Position numbers and translations under genes: made by a program. Below, piece by piece: positions 14,227 through 41,935 of a stretch of 64,000 bases of DNA. Below the pieces are notes generated by a model. It saw only the letters and a program-made list of their open reading frames with translations. It was not told where the DNA came from and did not search any database. The stretch's first letter is position 1. Every line of letters begins with the position of its first letter. The stretch lies in assembly GCA_009772935.1 (NCBI GenBank), contig WOUR01000002.1, positions 1 through 64,000 of the forward strand, given 5' to 3'. This DNA is from Rhodospirillaceae bacterium (GTDB taxonomy: Bacteria > Pseudomonadota > Alphaproteobacteria > Reyranellales > Reyranellaceae).

Positions 14227-15198
14227 ATGAGCGACGCCGGTCGCCACACCGTGACCTTCGACGAGAGCGCCACCGGCGAACGGCTGGACCGCGCGCTGGC
14301 TGCTGCGTTGCCTTCCCTGACGCGAAGTCGCGTCAAGGCGCTGATCGAGGGCCGCTGCGTAGCGCTTGCGGGAGGTGAGACGATAGAAGAGCCGTCCCGC
14401 AAGGTCAAAACGGGCGATGTGGTCATCGTCGATATCCCGGAGCCCGAACCGGCCGTTCCGCAGGCCCAGGACATGGCACTGGAGATCCTGTTCGAGGACA
14501 CAGATCTGCTGGTTTTGAACAAGCCGGCCGGAATGGTGGTCCATCCGGCCCCCGGGAATCCGGACCGTACACTGGTCAACGCCCTGCTGGCCCATTGCGG
14601 CGACAGCCTGTCCGGCATCGGTGGCGTGCGCCGGCCCGGGATCGTCCACCGGCTCGACAAGGACACGTCTGGGGTCATGGTCGTGGCCAAGAACGATGCG
14701 ACCCACCATGCGCTTTCCAAGCTGTTTGCGGCCCACGACCTTGAGCGCATCTATACGGCCCTGGTCTGGGGCGCCCCCAAGACCCCACGCGGGACGGTCG
14801 AGGAGGCGCTGGGACGGCACCCGGTCGATCGCAAGCGCATGGCGGTGCGCAAGACGGGCGGCCGGGCCGCCTTCACAGAATATTGGCTGGAGAAGCGCTT
14901 CGGGCCGCCTCTGGCGCCGATCGCAAGTCTCGTGGGCGCCAAGCTTGGGACAGGTCGGACCCATCAGGTCCGTGTCCACATGGCCCATATCGGCTGCCCG
15001 GTGGTGGGAGACCCGGTCTACGGCCGCAAATCCCGCAACGGCGGTGCACCCGAGGCGTTGAAAGTATTCCCTCGGCAGGCTCTTCACGCATCTGTGCTCG
15101 CCTTTCGACATCCAAAGACGGGGGAGAACGTAAGATTTGCCACAGAATTGCCTGAAGACTTCAGGAAGTTGGTCGGAACGCTGAACAGCGTTAAGTAA
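14227..15198 (+). CDS. rluD: 23S rRNA pseudouridine synthase RluD
   Basis: This 323-residue RluA/RluD-family enzyme has an N-terminal S4 RNA-binding domain (about 18-75: RLDRALAAALPSLTRSRVKALIEGRCV). The catalytic motif HRLDKDTSG places the catalytic aspartate at D144, and the C-terminal motif is GRTHQVRVHMAHIGCPVVGDPVYG. RluD makes pseudouridines in helix 69 of 23S rRNA. The gene is immediately followed by rpoH, a common alphaproteobacterial order, but a structured 140-bp leader with its own operator separates them. Confidence 0.93.
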   Translation: MSDAGRHTVTFDESATGERLDRALAAALPSLTRSRVKALIEGRCVALAGGETIEEPSRKVKTGDVVIVDIPEPEPAVPQAQDMALEILFEDTDLLVLNKPAGMVVHPAPGNPDRTLVNALLAHCGDSLSGIGGVRRPGIVHRLDKDTSGVMVVAKNDATHHALSKLFAAHDLERIYTALVWGAPKTPRGTVEEALGRHPVDRKRMAVRKTGGRAAFTEYWLEKRFGPPLAPIASLVGAKLGTGRTHQVRVHMAHIGCPVVGDPVYGRKSRNGGAPEALKVFPRQALHASVLAFRHPKTGENVRFATELPEDFRKLVGTLNSVK

Positions 15199-15252
15199 AG
15201 CCCTCAATACCCGAGGGGAATAGTAGGAATTAGATATTGACCCGAGGGCATT

Positions 15253-15268
15253 CCGACTTCACAGTCGG
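15253..15268. promoter_or_regulatory. short hairpin directly before the CIRCE element
   Basis: The perfect inverted repeat CCGACT-TCAC-AGTCGG ends 2 bp before the CIRCE-like operator. There is no T-tract, so it is not an ordinary terminator for rluD. It may be part of the rpoH leader structure or a second protein site. Confidence 0.4.
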
Positions 15269-15270
15269 AC

Positions 15271-15297
15271 TTAGCAGTCGGGGGACGAGAGTGCTAA
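15271..15297. promoter_or_regulatory. CIRCE-like HrcA operator upstream of rpoH
   Basis: The inverted repeat TTAGCAGTC-N9-GAGTGCTAA differs from the canonical CIRCE (TTAGCACTC-N9-GAGTGCTAA) at a single base and has the exact 9-bp spacer. CIRCE is the operator of the heat-shock repressor HrcA. It ends 44 bp before the rpoH start, so HrcA would repress the heat-shock sigma factor gene. Confidence 0.85.
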
Positions 15298-15341
15298 ATG
15301 CTCGTTCACCGGCGATCCCGCGTACGAAAGGGGGAGTAGCC

Positions 15342-16262
15342 ATGAGTGCAGCCACCGCAAACCTTCCCGCCCTGCCGTCGTCTCTGACGCCCGAGGGCAA
15401 TCTCAGCCGTTACCTGTCGGACATCCGGAAGTTTCCCCTGCTGGAACCGCAGGAAGAATTCATGCTGGCCAAGCGTTGGCGCGAGCACGGTGACAGCAAG
15501 GCCGCGCATCGCCTGGTCACCAGCCACCTGCGCCTGGTGGCGAAGATCGCCATGGGGTACCGCGGCTACGGCCTGCCGGTCGCCGAGCTGATCTCCGAGG
15601 GCAACGTCGGCATGATGCAGGCGGTGAAGCGGTTCGACCCGGACCGAGGCTTCCGCCTCGCCACCTATGCCATGTGGTGGATCCGCGCCTCAATCCAGGA
15701 ATACATCCTGCACAGCTGGTCGCTCGTGAAGATGGGCACCACGGCGGCGCAGAAGAAGCTGTTTTTCAACTTGCGCAAGCTCAAGGGCCAGATGCAGGCC
15801 ATCGAGGAGGGCGACCTGACGCCCGAGCAGGTGACCAAGATCGCCACCCGGCTCGGCGTGCCCGAGGAGGAGGTGGTGAACATGAACCGCCGCCTCGCCG
15901 CGCCCGATTCGTCGCTCAACGCCCCGGTAAAGGCCGAGGGCGACATGGAGTGGCAGGACTGGCTGGTCGACGATGCGCCCAACCAGGAAGCCCGGCTGGG
16001 AGAGAGCCAGGAGCTGGGCCAGCGCAAGGGCATGCTGGCCGCAGCCCTGAAGCAGCTCACCGACCGCGAACGCCACATCATCGTGGAGCGGCGTCTGGTC
16101 GACGAGCCGAAGACGCTCGAGGACCTGTCGTCCAAGTACGGCATCAGTCGCGAGCGGGTGCGCCAGATCGAGGTGCGCGCCTTCGACAAGCTGCAGAAGG
16201 CCATGAAGAACATGGTCGTCGAGGCGGCCGCCCGGCCGACGACCCAGCCGGCGCGCGGCTGA
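15342..16262 (+). CDS. rpoH: RNA polymerase heat-shock sigma factor RpoH (sigma-32)
   Basis: This 306-residue group 3 sigma factor directs RNA polymerase to heat-shock promoters. Region 2 has SHLRLVAKIAMGYRGYGLP and the core-binding/-10 helix FRLATYAMWWIRASIQEYIL. The RpoH box QKKLFFNLRK (about 137-146) is diagnostic against other sigma-70 members. Region 4.2 has LSSKYGISRERVRQIEVRAFDKLQKAM. ATG 15342 follows GGGGAG by the right spacing. Upstream in-frame codons lie in the operator region and are untranslated. Regulation by HrcA is suggested by the CIRCE-like element. Confidence 0.96.
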   Translation: MSAATANLPALPSSLTPEGNLSRYLSDIRKFPLLEPQEEFMLAKRWREHGDSKAAHRLVTSHLRLVAKIAMGYRGYGLPVAELISEGNVGMMQAVKRFDPDRGFRLATYAMWWIRASIQEYILHSWSLVKMGTTAAQKKLFFNLRKLKGQMQAIEEGDLTPEQVTKIATRLGVPEEEVVNMNRRLAAPDSSLNAPVKAEGDMEWQDWLVDDAPNQEARLGESQELGQRKGMLAAALKQLTDRERHIIVERRLVDEPKTLEDLSSKYGISRERVRQIEVRAFDKLQKAMKNMVVEAAARPTTQPARG

Positions 16263-16287
16263 GCGACGAGAAACGTTTCGTACGGTA

Positions 16288-16311
16288 GGCTCCCGGAAAC
16301 ATCCGGGAGCC
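16288..16311 (+). promoter_or_regulatory. 10-bp hairpin that buries the Shine-Dalgarno of the next gene
   Basis: GGCTCCCGGA-AACA-TCCGGGAGCC is a perfect 10-bp stem with a 4-base loop, 26 bp after rpoH and ending 4 bp before ATG 16316. Its 3' arm contains GGGAG (16305-16309), the only good ribosome-binding site for the enoyl-CoA hydratase gene. It may act as a translational gate, or as a weak terminator without a T-run. Confidence 0.6.
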
Positions 16312-16315
16312 CGCC

Positions 16316-17164
16316 ATGACGACGTCGCCGATCCTCTACGAGAACTTGCCGGGCGGAATCGCCCGCATCGTCCTCAACCGGCCCGACACCCGCAACGCGC
16401 AGGACACGGCGTTCCTCTATGCGCTGAACGACGCCTTCGACCGCGCCGCTCACGACGACCCCGTAAAGGTCATCGTGCTGTCGGCCAATGGCCCGCACTT
16501 CTCCTCGGGTCATGACCTGCGCGAGGTCGACGGGCACGGCAACATGTCCAGGCACGACACCGTCGGCACCTGGGGCGGCTTCGGCAAGCCCGGTGCCGAG
16601 GCGCAGTACGCGCGCGAGCAGGAGATCTACCTCGGCTTCTGCGAGCGCTGGCGCAACATTCCCAAGCCGACGCTGGCGCTGGTCCACGGCAAGGTGATGA
16701 TCGGCGGGCTGATGCTGATGTGGCCCTGCGACCTCATCGTTTGTTCGGAGGACGCCGAGTTCCTCGACCATTCGGTAGCGATGGGCGTGGGCGGTGCCGA
16801 GTTCTTCGCCCATCCCTGGGAGATGGGCATCCGCAAGGCCAAGGAATTTCTGTTCACGGCCGACTGGATCAAGGCGACCGAGGCGCATCGCCTGGGAATG
16901 GTGAACCATGTCGTCCCGCGCGCTGAACTCGAACCCTTCGGCCTAGCGATGGCCGAGCGCATCGCCCAGAAGCCGCTATTCGCCCTGAAGCTCGTGAAGC
17001 AGGCCATAAATGCGGCGCAGGACGCACAGGGCCGGGTCGGCGCCATGCAGACCTCGTTCGCGCTCCACCACCTGGCCCATGCCCACAACATGCTGGCGCA
17101 CGGCAAGCTGGTCGACCCGACCGGTCTGATGCCGGCCATCAAGAAGCACGAGAAGGCGAGCTAG
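16316..17164 (+). CDS. enoyl-CoA hydratase/isomerase family protein
   Basis: This 282-residue crotonase-fold protein has LNRPDTRNAQDTAFLYAL near the N-terminus, the oxyanion-hole region FSSGHDLREVDG, and the second oxyanion segment KVMIGGLMLMWPCDLIV. The usual hydratase glutamate pair is not conserved: the equivalent region reads LDHSVAMGVGGAEFF. The exact reaction (hydratase, isomerase or hydrolase) is therefore uncertain. The ribosome-binding site lies inside a stable hairpin. Confidence 0.85.
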   Translation: MTTSPILYENLPGGIARIVLNRPDTRNAQDTAFLYALNDAFDRAAHDDPVKVIVLSANGPHFSSGHDLREVDGHGNMSRHDTVGTWGGFGKPGAEAQYAREQEIYLGFCERWRNIPKPTLALVHGKVMIGGLMLMWPCDLIVCSEDAEFLDHSVAMGVGGAEFFAHPWEMGIRKAKEFLFTADWIKATEAHRLGMVNHVVPRAELEPFGLAMAERIAQKPLFALKLVKQAINAAQDAQGRVGAMQTSFALHHLAHAHNMLAHGKLVDPTGLMPAIKKHEKAS

Positions 17165-29879: not shown

Positions 29880-29976
29880 CGCGACAATCTCTCCACATTG
29901 ACGGCACATCTGCGGGCTCGTATACGGGCCGCGGGCCACGCTCCCCCACCGGAGTGCATTTCTTCTGTAAGGGAGA
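29880..29976 (+). promoter_or_regulatory. candidate serC leader RNA with Shine-Dalgarno-sequestering stem
   Basis: The 110-bp leader contains a hairpin GGCTCG-TATA-CGGGCC (with one G-T pair). CTCCC at 29941-29945 can pair either with the nearby GGAG (29951-29954) or with GGGAG (29971-29975), the serC ribosome-binding site. A conserved serC leader motif is described upstream of alphaproteobacterial serC-serA operons, its last stem covering the ribosome-binding site. The context fits, but I have not matched the consensus. Confidence 0.45.
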
Positions 29977-29982
29977 ATGACA

Positions 29983-36011: not shown

Positions 36012-36566
36012 ATGCCCCGTGTCAGCGAGATCGAGGAGGATGGCGGCGACGCCATTCTCAAGGCCGTCTTCGACCGGCAGCGCGAGATGTTCGGCGGCTT
36101 GCTGAACCCGACCAAGGTCATGGCGCATTGCCCGCCGATCCTGAAGGCGGCCGGCATGCTCGGCCAGTCGATCGAAGAGTCCGGCCTCCTGCCGAAGGGC
36201 CTGCCCGCATTGCTCTATGTGCGTGTTGCGACGATCAACGGCTGCCCGTTTTGAATCGATATCAATTCCAGCCGTGTGCTGGAAACGACGGAAGGCGGGA
36301 TGGAGAAGCTGGCCGAGGTCACGGCCTGGCGCGAGAGCAGGTTGTTCAGCGAGGCCGAGCGGCTGGCACTCGAATATGCGGAGCGGATCACCTACACCGA
36401 CCGCAAGGTCGACGAGGCGCTGGTCGATGACCTGGTGAAGTACTTCAGCGAGGCGCAGATCGTCGAGCTTACGGCGGCCATTGCGATGGAGAACTTCCGC
36501 TCGAAGTTCAATCCGGCCCTGGGAATCGAGGCACAGGGCTTCTGCATGGTGCCAAAACGCGGTTAG
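36012..36566 (+). CDS. carboxymuconolactone decarboxylase/AhpD-like selenoprotein with in-frame UGA (Sec81)
   Basis: Reading through TGA 36252-36254 gives a continuous 184-residue protein. Residues 70-85 then read VRVATINGCPF-Sec-IDIN, matching the AhpD/CMD motif NGC-x-[FY]-C-x-D/x-[HN], with selenocysteine in place of the second cysteine of C78-x-x-C81. Downstream residues (SSRVLETTEGGMEKLAEVTAWRESRLFSEAERLALEYAERIT) are intact, typical CMD-family sequence, so the gene is not decayed. CMD/AhpD-like proteins are thiol peroxidase-type redox proteins, and Sec forms of AhpD/CMD families are known. A bacterial SECIS-like hairpin follows the TGA. It is first in a two-gene unit with a second TGA-containing gene 32 bp downstream. 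Confidence 0.82.
36252..36284 (+). promoter_or_regulatory. candidate bacterial SECIS element of the CMD-like gene
   Basis: After TGA 36252-36254, TTCCAGC (36266-36272), loop CGTGT (36273-36277) and GCTGGAA (36278-36284) form a perfect 7-bp hairpin. The loop begins 18 nt after the TGA and has G as its second base. This fits the known bacterial SECIS rules (short stem, small apical loop with an early G, 16-37 nt from the UGA). Confidence 0.75.
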
Positions 36567-36598
36567 ACTGGCGGCAACGACAGAAGCCGGTGGAAACG

Positions 36599-37456
36599 AT
36601 GACCGAGACCGTCCGCTATATGGAGCGCACGAGGGACTACTACCGCGCCCTCGGCTATCCGTCCGACTATGTGTGGGCGCGGTTCGAAGCGGTTCCCTTC
36701 GCGAACCTCGCCAAGCCCCTGTCACAGTCGAGGATCGGCCTCGTTACGACCGCAAGTCCGCCCGACCTCGGCAACCGCGATGCGTCCGGCAGGCGGCAGG
36801 TCTGGTCGGGCGAGATCTCGGCGGCGCCAGACAGGCTCTTCACCGACAACCTCGCCTGGGACAAGGAATCGACGCATACCGACGACCGGGCGAGCTTTCT
36901 TCCGATCGAAGCTGTTCAGCACTGGGCAGACGAGGGCGTGGTCGGTGGTCTGGCGCACCGGTTCCACGGCGTCCCGACCGAGTACAGCCAGCGCAAGACG
37001 ACGGAACTCGATGCGCCGCAGGTCCTGGCGCGATTGCGCGCCGACGGCGCCGATGTGGCATTGCTCTCCCCGCTTTGACCCGTCTGCCACCAAACCGTGA
37101 GTTTGGTCGCCCGTCACCTCGAGGCCAACGGACTGCCGACAGTGATCGTCGGCTCCGCCTTCGACATCGTCGAGTATTGCGGCGTGCCGCGTTTCCTATT
37201 CACGGATTTCCCGCTGGGCAATCCGTGTGGCCCGCCGTGGCGGCAGGACCTGCAGCGCAAGATCGCAGAGCAGGCGCTGGATCTCGTGCGCGATGCCGAT
37301 GTGTCGCGCACCACACGCAAGTCGGATGTGCTCTGGCCGTCCGACGACGACTGGCACCCGCGCTATGGGCGCGTAAAGCCGGAGGATGTCGAGCGCCTCA
37401 GAGCACTGGGCGAAGAGAGGCGGCGCAAGCATTCAGAGGCACGGAAGCCGGGGTAG
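36599..37456 (+). CDS. GrdB/PrdB-like (glycine/sarcosine/betaine reductase B family) selenoprotein with in-frame UGA (Sec160)
   Basis: Reading through TGA 37076-37078 gives a 285-residue protein. Around the TGA the sequence is GADVALLSPL-Sec-PVCHQTVSLVARHLEANGLPTVIVG, which matches the U-x-x-C centre of GrdB/PrdB (Sec160, Cys163). The C-terminal FTDFPLGNPCGPPW corresponds to the HPLGNP segment of that family. Both halves are intact and in one frame. Clostridial GrdB and PrdB are catalytic selenoproteins of amino-acid reductases. This short proteobacterial version has no partner subunits nearby, so its reaction is unknown. GTG 36590 is an alternative start. It is co-oriented with the CMD-like selenoprotein gene. 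Confidence 0.82.
37076..37107 (+). promoter_or_regulatory. candidate bacterial SECIS element of the GrdB-like gene
   Basis: After TGA 37076-37078, ACCAAAC (37089-37095), loop CGTGA (37096-37100) and GTTTGGT (37101-37107) form a perfect 7-bp hairpin whose loop starts 17 nt after the TGA. Loop and geometry nearly copy the hairpin after the first TGA (CGTGT, 7 bp, 18 nt), although the stems are unrelated in sequence. Confidence 0.75.
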
Positions 37457-37471
37457 AGCGGTCCGCGACCG

Positions 37472-38449
37472 CTACTCCATCTGGACGTTGAGCTCGCGCA
37501 GCTTCTTGCCCCAGAAGGCGTGCTCGTCGGCGACGAACTTGGTGAACTGGGCGCGGGTCCGGTCGGGCGGCATTTCCAGCCCGTCGCGAGCCAGCGCCTC
37601 CCCCCATTTGGGATTCTTCATCGCTTCCTTGGTCGCCTTCTCGATCTTGTCGAGGATGTCGGGCGGCGTCTTGGCTGGTGCGAACAGGCCCTGCCAGCTG
37701 GTGACGACGACGTCGATCCCCTGTTCCTTCAGGGTCGGCACGTCCGGCATGGAACTGACGCGCTTGTTGCCGGTCACCGCCAGCGCCTTGAGGTTGCCGC
37801 CCTTGACCTGCGAGACCGCCGGCGGCAGCGACGAAAAGTTCATGGTGATCTGGCCGCTGATGACGTCGGCCACCGCCGGTCCGGTGCCCTTGTAGGGCAC
37901 GTGGGTGATCTTGATGCCGGCCGCTTCCGCAAACAGTGCACCCGCGAGGTGGTTGTTGCCGCCCACACCCGACGACGAGAAAGTGAGCTTCTCGGGATCC
38001 TTCTTGGCCATCGCTACCAGCTCGGCCGCATTCTTTACCGGCACCTTGTTCCCCACGACCAGCACGTACTGGTAGTCCGTGATCTGGCAGATCGGCGCCA
38101 GCGAGGCGAGGGTGTCGATCATGCCCTTCTGGACGTATGGATTGATGATCACGTTGGTGCCGACGGCGACGAACAGGGTCTGGCCGTCGGGTTTGGCATT
38201 CGCGACGGCGCGCAGGCCGATCGAGCCTGCGGCGCCCCCCTTGTTCTCGATGATGATCTGCTGGCCGATCACCGGTGTCATGACGTGCGCGAGCTCGCGG
38301 GCATTGATGTCGGTGCTGCCGCCGGCGGCGTAGCCCACCACGAAGGTCACCGGACCGGCCGGCCAGGCCGCCTGAGCGTGCAGGGTCGACGGCAGGATCA
38401 GGGACGAGCCGCCGAGCGCCAGGGCGTGGCGACGGGAAATGGGGAACAT
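37472..38449 (-). CDS. tripartite tricarboxylate transporter substrate-binding protein (TctC/Bug family)
   Basis: This 325-residue periplasmic receptor starts at ATG 38449 behind GAGGAAG. The signal MFPISRRHALALGGSSLILPSTLHAQA contains a twin-arginine-like pair. Bug-family motifs are VTFVVGYAAGGSTDINAREL, IIENKGGAAGSIGLRAVANAKPDGQTL and ITHVPYKGTGPAVADVISGQI. TctA and TctB membrane genes are absent, which is common for the expanded Bug families. It lies 94 bp downstream of the tricarballylate dehydrogenase-like gene, suggesting the pair captures and oxidises a carboxylate. Confidence 0.92.
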   Translation of the reverse strand: MFPISRRHALALGGSSLILPSTLHAQAAWPAGPVTFVVGYAAGGSTDINARELAHVMTPVIGQQIIIENKGGAAGSIGLRAVANAKPDGQTLFVAVGTNVIINPYVQKGMIDTLASLAPICQITDYQYVLVVGNKVPVKNAAELVAMAKKDPEKLTFSSSGVGGNNHLAGALFAEAAGIKITHVPYKGTGPAVADVISGQITMNFSSLPPAVSQVKGGNLKALAVTGNKRVSSMPDVPTLKEQGIDVVVTSWQGLFAPAKTPPDILDKIEKATKEAMKNPKWGEALARDGLEMPPDRTRAQFTKFVADEHAFWGKKLRELNVQME

Positions 38450-38543: not shown

Positions 38544-40034
38544 TCAGTTCTTCCCCGTGACGTAGCGGCCGGCGCCATCGCCCGCGAGCTTGCCCAGCAC
38601 CGCGCCGGAGACCAGCCCGGTGCCGCCGGGATAGTTGTGGTAGAACAGCCCGCCGACCAGCTCGCCCGCGGCGAACAGCCCGGGGATCGGATGGCCGTCA
38701 GTGCTCTCGACCTCGCCCTCGTTGCTGATCTTCAGGCCACCAAAGGTGAAGGTGAGGCCGCAGGTCACGGCATAGGCTTCAAAAGGCCCCTGGTCGATCG
38801 TATTGGCCCAGTTCGTCTTCGGCACGGCGAGGCCCCGCGTGCCGCGGCCGTCCTTGATCGCCGGATTGAACGGCACCTCGGTCATTACCGCCGCGTTCCA
38901 TTCCTTGATGGTCTTGAGGAACTGCTGCTCGTCGACGCCTTCCAGCTTCTTCGCCAGTTCCTCGATCGTGTCGGCGCGGACCTTGGTCATGCGCTTGATG
39001 CGGTATTCGTCGCGCAGCTTGTCGAGCACCTTCGAATCGAAGATCTGCCACGCGAACTGCTGCGGCTGGGCCAGGATCACCGCTCCGTACTTGGCGTAGG
39101 TGTAGTTGCGGAAGTCCGCGCCCTCGTCGACGAAGCGGAGCCCGTTGGCGTTCACCATGATGCCGAGCGGGTAGGAGTGCTTCTGGAAATTGTCGCCGAC
39201 GTCGAGGTCGCCGAATTCCGGCGCATTCATGTCCCAGCCGACGGCGTGGCCGCCCGACCAGTTGCCGTGCGGCTTGGCGCCGATCGCCAGCGCCATGTTG
39301 ATGCCGGCGCCGGTGTTGAACCGCGTGCCGCGCACCTTGGCGAGATCCCAGGTCGGCCCGAGATAGCGGGTGCGCATCTCAGCGTTGCTCTCGAAGCCGC
39401 CGCAGGCCAGCACCACCGCCTTGGCGCCGATCCTGATCTTGCGGCCTTTGTGGCGGGCGATGACGCCGCGCACGACGCCATCTTCCTCGATCAGCGACAC
39501 TGCCGCCGTCTCATAGTGGATGGGGATGCCGGCCTTGATCGCAGCCTTGTGCTCGAGATCGACGAGGCCCGGTCCGCCGCCCCAGGCCTCGACCGCCAGG
39601 CCGCCCCAGAACTTGTACTTTCCGTTCACCTTGAAGGCCTGACGGCCGTACGAGGGCTGGAAGCGCACGCCCTTGGAGCGCATCCACTTCATGGTCTCGA
39701 AGCTGCGACCGATCAGGATGTCGGTCAGTTCTGGGTCGCAGCGGTAGTTGGTCACACGGCCCATGTCGTCGAGATACTGGTCGGCGGTATAGCTGCCGAA
39801 ATCGACGTCGCGCTTTTCGTCCTCGGTGAGGTCGTAGAGCTGTACCAAGTCATCGACGCCATGGAAGACTACGCGCATGGCGCCGGCCGTGTAGGTGCTG
39901 TTGCCGCCGCGCTCGGCCTCGGGAGCCGCCTCCAGCATGGCCACCGACGCGCCCGTCTCGCGCGCCGCCAGGGCCGCGCACGCCGCCGCGTTTCCAGCAC
40001 CCACCACCAACACATCGACCTGAAAATCGTCCAC
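38544..40034 (-). CDS. tcuA: FAD-dependent tricarballylate dehydrogenase-like flavoprotein
   Basis: This 496-residue protein of the fumarate reductase/succinate dehydrogenase flavoprotein superfamily has the N-terminal FAD motif VDVLVVGAGNAAACAALAARE, ERGGNSTYTAGAMR, and the C-terminal FAD segment IPGLFAAGELVGGLFYHNYPGGTGLVSGAVLGKLAG. The absence of the covalent-flavin histidine motif and the match to GGNSTYTAGAMR favour a TcuA-like soluble dehydrogenase that oxidises tricarballylate to aconitate. The TcuB electron-transfer partner is not nearby, so the substrate assignment is moderate. Confidence 0.8.
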   Translation of the reverse strand: MDDFQVDVLVVGAGNAAACAALAARETGASVAMLEAAPEAERGGNSTYTAGAMRVVFHGVDDLVQLYDLTEDEKRDVDFGSYTADQYLDDMGRVTNYRCDPELTDILIGRSFETMKWMRSKGVRFQPSYGRQAFKVNGKYKFWGGLAVEAWGGGPGLVDLEHKAAIKAGIPIHYETAAVSLIEEDGVVRGVIARHKGRKIRIGAKAVVLACGGFESNAEMRTRYLGPTWDLAKVRGTRFNTGAGINMALAIGAKPHGNWSGGHAVGWDMNAPEFGDLDVGDNFQKHSYPLGIMVNANGLRFVDEGADFRNYTYAKYGAVILAQPQQFAWQIFDSKVLDKLRDEYRIKRMTKVRADTIEELAKKLEGVDEQQFLKTIKEWNAAVMTEVPFNPAIKDGRGTRGLAVPKTNWANTIDQGPFEAYAVTCGLTFTFGGLKISNEGEVESTDGHPIPGLFAAGELVGGLFYHNYPGGTGLVSGAVLGKLAGDGAGRYVTGKN

Positions 40035-40744: not shown

Positions 40745-41935
40745 ATGACCTCATCGTTTGAACCGCCTCTCAAGGGCGTCCGCGTCGTCGAACTCACCCA
40801 CACGATCCTGGGCCCGTCCTGCGGCATGATCCTGGCCGACCTCGGTGCCGAGGTAATCAAGGTCGAGCCGGTCGACGGTGACCGTACACGCAAGTTGCGC
40901 GGCTTCGGCGCCGGCTTCTTCGGCTACTTCAACCGCAACAAGAAGAGCCTGGCGCTCGATGCCGATTCGCCCGAGGGCCGCAAGGTGCTGGTGAAGTTGC
41001 TCGAGAAGGCCGACGTGCTGATCGAGAACTTCGCACCGGGCTCGATGGCCAAGCGGAAGCTCGCGCCGGCGGACCTCGAGAAGATCAACCCACGCCTCGT
41101 CTATTGCTCGCTCAAAGGCTTCCTGCCGGGGCCGTACGAAAAGCGCCCGGCGCTCGATGAGGTCGTACAGATGATGGGCGGGCTCGCTTACATGACCGGC
41201 CCCAGCGGCCGGCCGCTGCGCGCCGGCACCTCGGTAATCGACATCGTGGGCGGCATGTTCGGCGCCTTCGGGACCGTGCTGGCGCTGAAGCAGCGCGACC
41301 GAACGGGGAAGGGCGGTCTGGTCGAGAGCGCGCTGTTCGAATCGGTCGTCTTCCTGATGGGCCAGCATCTTGCGATCACGGCGATCAACGGCGCTGCGCC
41401 GCCGCCGATGCCGGAGAGGGTGAGCTCGTGGGCGGTCTACGAGATTTTCAACACCGCCGACGAACTGCAGGTTTTCATCGGCATCACCAGCGACGGCCAG
41501 TGGAAGCGATTCTGCGAGTTCTTCAAGCAGCCCGAGCTGGCGGCCGACCCGAAGCTCGCCACCAATAACCTGCGCATCGAGGCGCGGCCGTGGCTGGTGC
41601 CCAAGGTAGCCGCGGTGTTCAAGGCCTACACCAAGGAGGCGCTGGAGCAGATGTGCCTGGAGGCAGACATCTCCTATGCGCCGGTCGCCCGGCCGCAGGA
41701 CCTGTTCGACCATCCGCACCTTCTGGCCAATGGCTCGCTGGTGCCGACGACCCTGCCGGGCGGCGTGCAGACCCGCCTGCCGCTGCTGCCTTTCCAGATG
41801 ATGGGCTGGCGGCCGCCGCTGGTCTCCAATCCACCGGAGGTCGGCCAGCACAATGACGAGGTGCTGTCGGAGATCGGCTACGACCCTGCGGGCATCTCAG
41901 GGCTGAAGACGGCCGGGCTGCTTGGACCCAAATAG
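40745..41935 (+). CDS. CaiB/BaiF family (type III) CoA-transferase
   Basis: This 396-residue enzyme transfers CoA between carboxylic acids. Family hallmarks are LKGVRVVELTHTILGPSCGMILADLGAEVIKVEP at the N-terminus, FGYFNRNKKSLALDADSPEGRKVLVKLLEKADVLIENFAPG, and the catalytic aspartate in YEKRPALDEVVQMMGGLAYMTG. The substrate is unknown. Related carboxylate genes (a TctC-type receptor and the TcuA-like dehydrogenase) lie just upstream on the other strand. It is probably co-transcribed with the preceding hypothetical gene. Confidence 0.92.
   Translation: MTSSFEPPLKGVRVVELTHTILGPSCGMILADLGAEVIKVEPVDGDRTRKLRGFGAGFFGYFNRNKKSLALDADSPEGRKVLVKLLEKADVLIENFAPGSMAKRKLAPADLEKINPRLVYCSLKGFLPGPYEKRPALDEVVQMMGGLAYMTGPSGRPLRAGTSVIDIVGGMFGAFGTVLALKQRDRTGKGGLVESALFESVVFLMGQHLAITAINGAAPPPMPERVSSWAVYEIFNTADELQVFIGITSDGQWKRFCEFFKQPELAADPKLATNNLRIEARPWLVPKVAAVFKAYTKEALEQMCLEADISYAPVARPQDLFDHPHLLANGSLVPTTLPGGVQTRLPLLPFQMMGWRPPLVSNPPEVGQHNDEVLSEIGYDPAGISGLKTAGLLGPK

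Follow-up and report, generated by a model that had tools for sequence, protein, structure and literature searches.

A reading frame interrupted by a TGA codon in the window, the stretch of 64,000 nucleotides analysed here (contig C14 of the 6.0-Mb genome G000, which is 98% complete), raises two questions: does this codon end translation or encode an amino acid, and what kind of protein would result if it is read through? The initial annotation had described a GrdB/PrdB-like gene with an in-frame TGA at positions 36599 to 37456, and its extent as one gene was confirmed. On the plus strand, a single frame of 285 codons runs from an ATG at 36599 to a TAG stop at 37454-37456 with one TGA (37076-37078) as codon 160, and a weak Shine-Dalgarno-like sequence, GGTGGA, is located ahead of the ATG (36589-36594, same strand). 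That such a frame is open across the TGA far exceeds what is expected by chance. Around codon 160, the deduced protein reads ...LLSPL-U-PVCHQTVSLVARHLE...FPLGNPCG... or, over a longer stretch, ...ADVALLSPL-U-PVCHQTVSLVARHLEANGLPT...FTDFPLGNPCG.... Judged from the sequence and from homologues, this is a stand-alone gene for a PrdB-like selenoprotein of 285 amino acids with the motif UPVCHQT, in which Sec160 and its partner Cys163 (codon 37085-37087) form a U-x-x-C centre followed by His164-Gln165. The partner cysteine is invariant in an alignment of 60 family members.

Decoding of the TGA codon

Orthologues with 80-87% identity to the window gene were detected in Reyranella records, R. aquatilis among them, and the R. 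massiliensis orthologue is 71% identical; the source of the window is accordingly a Reyranella. In the Reyranella genomes searched, TGA occupies this codon in all 30 orthologues (the window gene counted), never TAA or TAG; in every case the frame remains open past the TGA to a proper stop. The two parts of the frame are equally constrained, with Ka/Ks values of 0.387 5' and 0.377 3' of the codon. A wider set of 81 homologous genes, representing 79 loci from Alpha-, Beta-, and Gammaproteobacteria, Chloroflexota, Rokubacteria, Hydrogenedentota, and Syntrophaceae, contains TGA (45), TGC (31), or TGT (5) at this position, that is, cysteine codons in 36 of 81 genes and no other codon. Among the homologues, none was found that ends at the TGA and lacks the C-terminal half, an arrangement which the initial annotation had regarded as speaking against its proposal. 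Selenocysteine at the U-x-x-C centre, as suggested there, is in accordance with the TGA in 30/30 orthologues and with TGA or Cys as the only states in the wider set. On these comparative grounds, the TGA at 37076-37078 is almost certainly decoded as selenocysteine.

A bacterial SECIS stem-loop was assigned to positions 37086-37110 of the plus strand on the basis of covariation, a low synonymous rate, and erosion in Cys alleles. It is composed of a 7-bp stem (37089-37095 paired with 37101-37107), a loop CGUGA (37096-37100) that has the conserved apical G, and two more pairs beneath, and the stem with its CGUG-type pentaloop begins 10 nt 3' of the TGA. In 34 sequences, 22 of them distinct, 98% of the pair cells are standard pairs; two-sided changes occur at four pairs, and the covariation was matched in 0 of 500 shuffles. 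The synonymous rate is 0.11 at codons +6 to +11 versus 0.3 to 0.7 in adjacent intervals. Since single-sequence folding of this region gave a free energy that is not significant (z -0.09), the SECIS element is argued from covariation. The seven stem pairs are all kept in 37 of 45 TGA alleles versus 1 of 36 Cys alleles (Mann-Whitney p 9e-14, a value that is optimistic because the sequences are related).

The initial annotation had also made selenocysteine dependent on the presence of sel genes, and SelA, SelB, SelD, and tRNA-Sec were all found in the genome. Contig C61 combines formate dehydrogenase genes with SelA (565 bits), SelB (388 bits), and tRNA-Sec (71.5 bits), while SelD is the C-terminal portion of an oxidoreductase-SelD fusion of 741 amino acids (285 bits, cut-off 125). 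SelB scored above cut-off in 23 of 25 genomes with TGA alleles versus 4 of 25 with Cys alleles (Fisher p 7e-8, uncorrected for relatedness); the two exceptional TGA genomes, L076 and L094, are both metagenome-assembled. As a side observation, in the SelD fusion (L057 274-2499) a pyridine nucleotide-disulfide oxidoreductase domain precedes SelD, and the protein also matches TIGR04369 'fusion_not_SelD' with 498 bits (cut-off 700).

Two other readings of the codon have to be weighed. Translation with table 11 yields ORFs of 162 and 119 amino acids, as if the TGA were a genuine stop leaving a pseudogene, or a truncated protein and an independent C-terminal ORF beginning at GTG 37097. The exclusive retention of TGA over TAA and TAG, the same Ka/Ks on either side, the conserved SECIS element, and the cysteine at the Sec codon of selB-poor relatives make this very improbable. 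The open frame by itself would equally permit TGA to specify some other residue, for instance Trp, through reassignment of the code or suppression. However, reassignment is ruled out by the ordinary use of TGA as the final stop in 12 of the 30 orthologues; moreover, Cys is the sole alternative residue at the Sec column and the Sec machinery is present in the genome, so that such a reading is improbable in the extreme. Both readings are refuted by the comparative data.

Relationship to PrdB and GrdB

The curated model matched best by the window protein is PrdB, TIGR04483 (E 1.2e-19, residues 34-234, 70.7 bits, cut-off 300), which is matched by 60/60 members of the alignment. GrdB-type models (PF07355, TIGR01917/8, NF040794/5) yielded 23-33 bits and none of their cut-offs (65-800) was reached; no match was obtained to Pfam at 0.001. 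The Terrisporobacter PrdB match has an E value of 1e-12, and for PrdB of Terrisporobacter and Peptoclostridium the identity is 24% with Sec and Cys in register (U-G-T-C-H versus U-P-V-C-H). The superfamily relationship claimed initially is borne out by the TIGR04483 match, but the double name GrdB/PrdB has to be narrowed: by sequence comparison, the nearest characterised relative is PrdB (238 aa), the Sec subunit of D-proline reductase, ahead of GrdB, and the curated cut-off is reached for neither.

The PrdB proteins of Clostridium and Terrisporobacter, with Sec likewise encoded by UGA, share with the window protein the homology over residues 34-234, the U-x-x-C-H arrangement, and a PxGxx segment that follows the Sec helix. 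They differ in their motif, UGTCHRS instead of UPVCHQT, and in their length of about 240 amino acids; the window family has the conserved segment YMxRTRxYYxxLGY at its N-terminus in addition and extends further at the C-terminus. No PrdA or PrdC gene adjoins the window gene. GrdB, GrdF, and GrdH (PF07355, TIGR01918), protein B of glycine, sarcosine, and betaine reductase, belong to the same superfamily and have Sec at the aligned column, but they measure about 430 amino acids, possess an extra N-terminal half and another Sec motif, and form a complex with GrdE-type subunits. Members 42-47% identical to the window protein, encoded on alphaproteobacterial plasmids, carry the NCBI name 'glycine/sarcosine/betaine reductase selenoprotein B family protein'. 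This is a name only, and one such protein, WP_207415257.1 from Roseomonas, has Cys instead of Sec at the column.

PrdB and GrdB act with a pyruvoyl subunit, PrdA or GrdE (PF09338). The PF09338 profile detected PrdA/GrdE in three of three control records, but no such protein in the genome harbouring the window gene or in 39 other family-carrying genomes, which upholds the initial statement on missing partners as far as the GrdE/PrdA type is concerned. Clear PrdB homology over nearly the entire length and the common U-x-x-C-H would be expected of a true subunit of D-proline (or glycine/betaine) reductase whose PrdA/GrdE partner is distant or unrecognised and encoded elsewhere in the genome. Given the outcome of the profile searches and scores far short of the PrdB cut-off, this explanation is quite improbable. 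The window protein is not considered PrdB because its score is far under the cut-off, it has the extra N-terminal segment, and PrdA/GrdE is missing from the genome. Very probably, it is a PrdB relative working without PrdA or GrdE, and the names PrdB and GrdB are therefore both unfit. In one of the records compared, that of Peptoclostridium acidaminophilum (prdB at L168 4977-5690), a PF09338-matching stretch is located just 5' of prdB (258999-260039 of the record); it is unnamed in the annotation as listed, the gene table being incomplete.

Paralogues and gene neighbours

The genome contains five members of the family with one TGA apiece: the window gene, C107:112154, two on C62 (14752 and 15629), and C48:6053. 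The C62 genes are a tandem pair of PrdB-like selenoprotein genes (14752-16393; L022 4645-6400), the second of which, C62b, reads U-P-L-D-H and has lost the partner Cys. Tandem pairs of this kind were also observed in L094 and in Reyranella G008 and G025. The C48 copy (L021 5963-7132) has UPAC and carries about 150 additional C-terminal residues that have no Pfam name; selenoproteins of its type are present in most Reyranella. The initial annotation had proposed a tree of PF07355-type proteins on which alphaproteobacterial members with Cys or TGA at the Sec column are noted. A tree of the family revealed a window-type subfamily that is mostly Sec, with a nested Bradyrhizobium Cys clade, and a C107-type subfamily that is mostly Cys, with Sec in Reyranella, Rokubacteria, and Chloroflexia. 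The Sec/Cys label requires at least three changes on this quick tree, which has several open forks. The C107-type paralogue constitutes a natural experiment, a Sec/Cys switch inside one genus: most Reyranella have TGA, five (L161-L165) have TGT or TGC, and in those five the stem is eroded.

The gene upstream, on the plus strand at 36012-36566, encodes an AhpD/CMD-like selenoprotein with a CPF-U motif (TGA 36252-36254) and ends 32 bp 5' of the window gene. It has its own SECIS-like stem-loop, TTCCAGC-CGTGT-GCTGGAA (36266-36284, plus strand), with a loop of the same CGTG type as in the window gene, and TGA is found in nearly all Reyranella genomes searched. This selenoprotein gene is also real. 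Its product scored 126.7 bits against NF053654 'YciW-related (seleno)protein' (cut-off 310). The initial description of the window gene as directly downstream of a first TGA gene is correct for the window, but the pairing is confined to the nearest species. In most Reyranella the AhpD/CMD-like gene is located away from the orthologue of the window gene, and a general operon of the two was rejected.

With the five family members, the AhpD-like gene, and FdhA, which is a selenoprotein as well (UHGPTVASLGPTFGRGAMTN), at least seven selenoprotein genes are present in the genome. The published definition of 'selenoprotein-rich' is six or more selenoproteins, and the group consists otherwise mostly of anaerobes (PMC5029168); this alphaproteobacterium falls within it. 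In the literature collection searched, no relevant paper on Reyranella selenoproteins was found.

No fixed partner of the window gene was recognised, as neighbours vary across orthologues and species. Downstream in the window are genes for a TctC-type solute-binding protein (37472-38449, minus strand), which is convergent and on a separate transcript, a TcuA-like FAD dehydrogenase (38544-40034, minus strand), and, 3.3 kb away, a CoA-transferase of family III (40745-41935, plus strand). Because these genes are convergent or distant, the block was not accepted as functional context. The situation is different for the C107 paralogue (L166 5903-8111), which is followed after 7 bp by a CoA-transferase III gene in the same genome, and such pairs, in Sec and Cys forms, exist in Reyranella, Rokubacteria, Rhodospirillales, Marinosulfonomonas, Belnapia, and others. 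The CoA-transferase III of the window shares only about 31% identity with the enzyme encoded in the operon of that paralogue. A gene for a TPR protein lies directly 3' of three Bradyrhizobium Cys orthologues and one Reyranella orthologue and also beside the C62 pair, but it is only a hint, since most Reyranella have that gene elsewhere. A serC leader RNA motif (RF00517, 46 bits) was noted at 29929-29981 of the window, ahead of a serC-like gene.

Possible reaction and earlier records of the family

An AlphaFold2 model of the window protein is confident (pLDDT 92.9, pTM 0.92). It places Sec160 after a strand (153-157) and just ahead of a helix (161-176), a typical position for a nucleophile. Residues Y7, Y15, D96, R198, and N208 are conserved far from the motif. 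A PDB sequence search with the family profile gave no credible relative, Foldseek gave no match better than E 0.01, and VIA-align gave generic Rossmann-like/LacI-core matches only, with Z up to 9.1. As these structural matches are generic, the fold was not used to assign a function.

On the comparative sequence evidence, the gene almost certainly makes a full-length selenoprotein, SelB and tRNA-Sec decoding UGA 160 as Sec under the direction of the downstream stem-loop, and this single-subunit PrdB relative very probably operates without pyruvoyl PrdA/GrdE. According to the mechanism proposed here, Sec160 would attack an electrophilic centre, carbon or heteroatom, in a small carboxylic acid or in its CoA ester; Cys163 would resolve the Se adduct to give the reduced product and a selenenylsulfide, and cellular thiols would regenerate the latter. 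The reaction would correspond to the PrdB half-reaction on a substrate that can react without activation as a Schiff base; without PrdA it is putative, because PrdB itself requires PrdA. The most likely chemistry to be suggested from the sequence, at somewhat less than an even chance, is that of a selenol/thiol (UxxC) reductase which breaks a bond in a small acid or in the corresponding CoA ester. Such a substrate is favoured by the kinship with PrdB and by the association of the sister subfamily with a CoA-transferase, but the CoA-transferase operon is a property of the paralogue subfamily and not of the window gene, which counts against the acid/CoA reading. That GrdB-type Sec proteins may break carbon bonds in compounds besides amino acids, and that the substrates of the superfamily may accordingly exceed amino acids, is suggested by FarB, a GrdB-like selenoprotein tied to fluoroacetate reduction; it differs in having a FarE partner and in coming from an anaerobe, and its function was inferred from transcriptomics (PMC10838667).

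The main alternative would be a selenoprotein for general thiol redox reactions or peroxide detoxification, whose UxxC cycles between selenol/thiol and selenenylsulfide together with the CxxU AhpD-like neighbour. UxxC is a common redox motif, a role of this kind should produce identical marks in the sequence, and the AhpD-like gene is in close proximity in the window and adjoining in the nearest species. Most of the genus has lost this pairing though both genes remain, the model is a Rossmann-like alpha/beta sandwich whose best matches (of moderate Z only) are not thioredoxin-like, and the five residues conserved far from the motif suggest a specific substrate pocket. Such a general role is regarded as rather unlikely. 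For the reductase proposed above, the whole explanation, a full-length single-subunit selenoprotein related to PrdB with the chemistry given, is reasonably probable. That pyruvoyl-independent, single-subunit Sec reductases act in aerobic bacteria on small carboxylic acids or CoA esters, with five Sec paralogues in one genome, is a tentative suggestion; if true, it would be a type of reaction not described for any PrdB/GrdB relative.

Reyranella is an aerobic bacterium of soil and water. With the family now placed in the cultured species R. massiliensis and R. aquatilis and a close Cys form, about 65% identical, in Bradyrhizobium, the function of this type of selenoprotein in aerobic bacteria becomes testable in culturable strains; a clean Sec/Cys comparison is available inside one genus, and one subfamily is tied to a CoA-transferase. 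New are the definition of a partner-free subfamily with controls, the expansion to five Sec paralogues within a single genome, and the Sec/Cys swaps with SECIS decay. The kind of family was already known, because relatives named by NCBI and a UxxC 'PrdB' of marine data precede it. Sargasso Sea data contained 42 UxxC 'Proline reductase PrdB' selenoprotein genes, explained via the clostridial D-proline reaction (PMC1088965, 2005), and in the GOS data, where UxxC 'PrdB' was among the commonest ocean-water selenoproteins, 235 Sec and 110 Cys forms were assigned to pfam07355 (PMC2398784). These marine proteins of ocean surface bacteria agree with the window family in UxxC and in having many Sec and some Cys forms, but they were named by similarity, and the text available from these papers gives neither partner nor subfamily (PMC1088965, PMC2398784). 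Compared by description and UxxC motif, they are likely to be the same as the window subfamily. Since the relatives studied have no PrdA, the name PrdB is unlikely to reflect their function. Among the homologues, TGA-bearing relatives were found in apparently marine metagenome-assembled genomes (L079, L083, L097, and L101).
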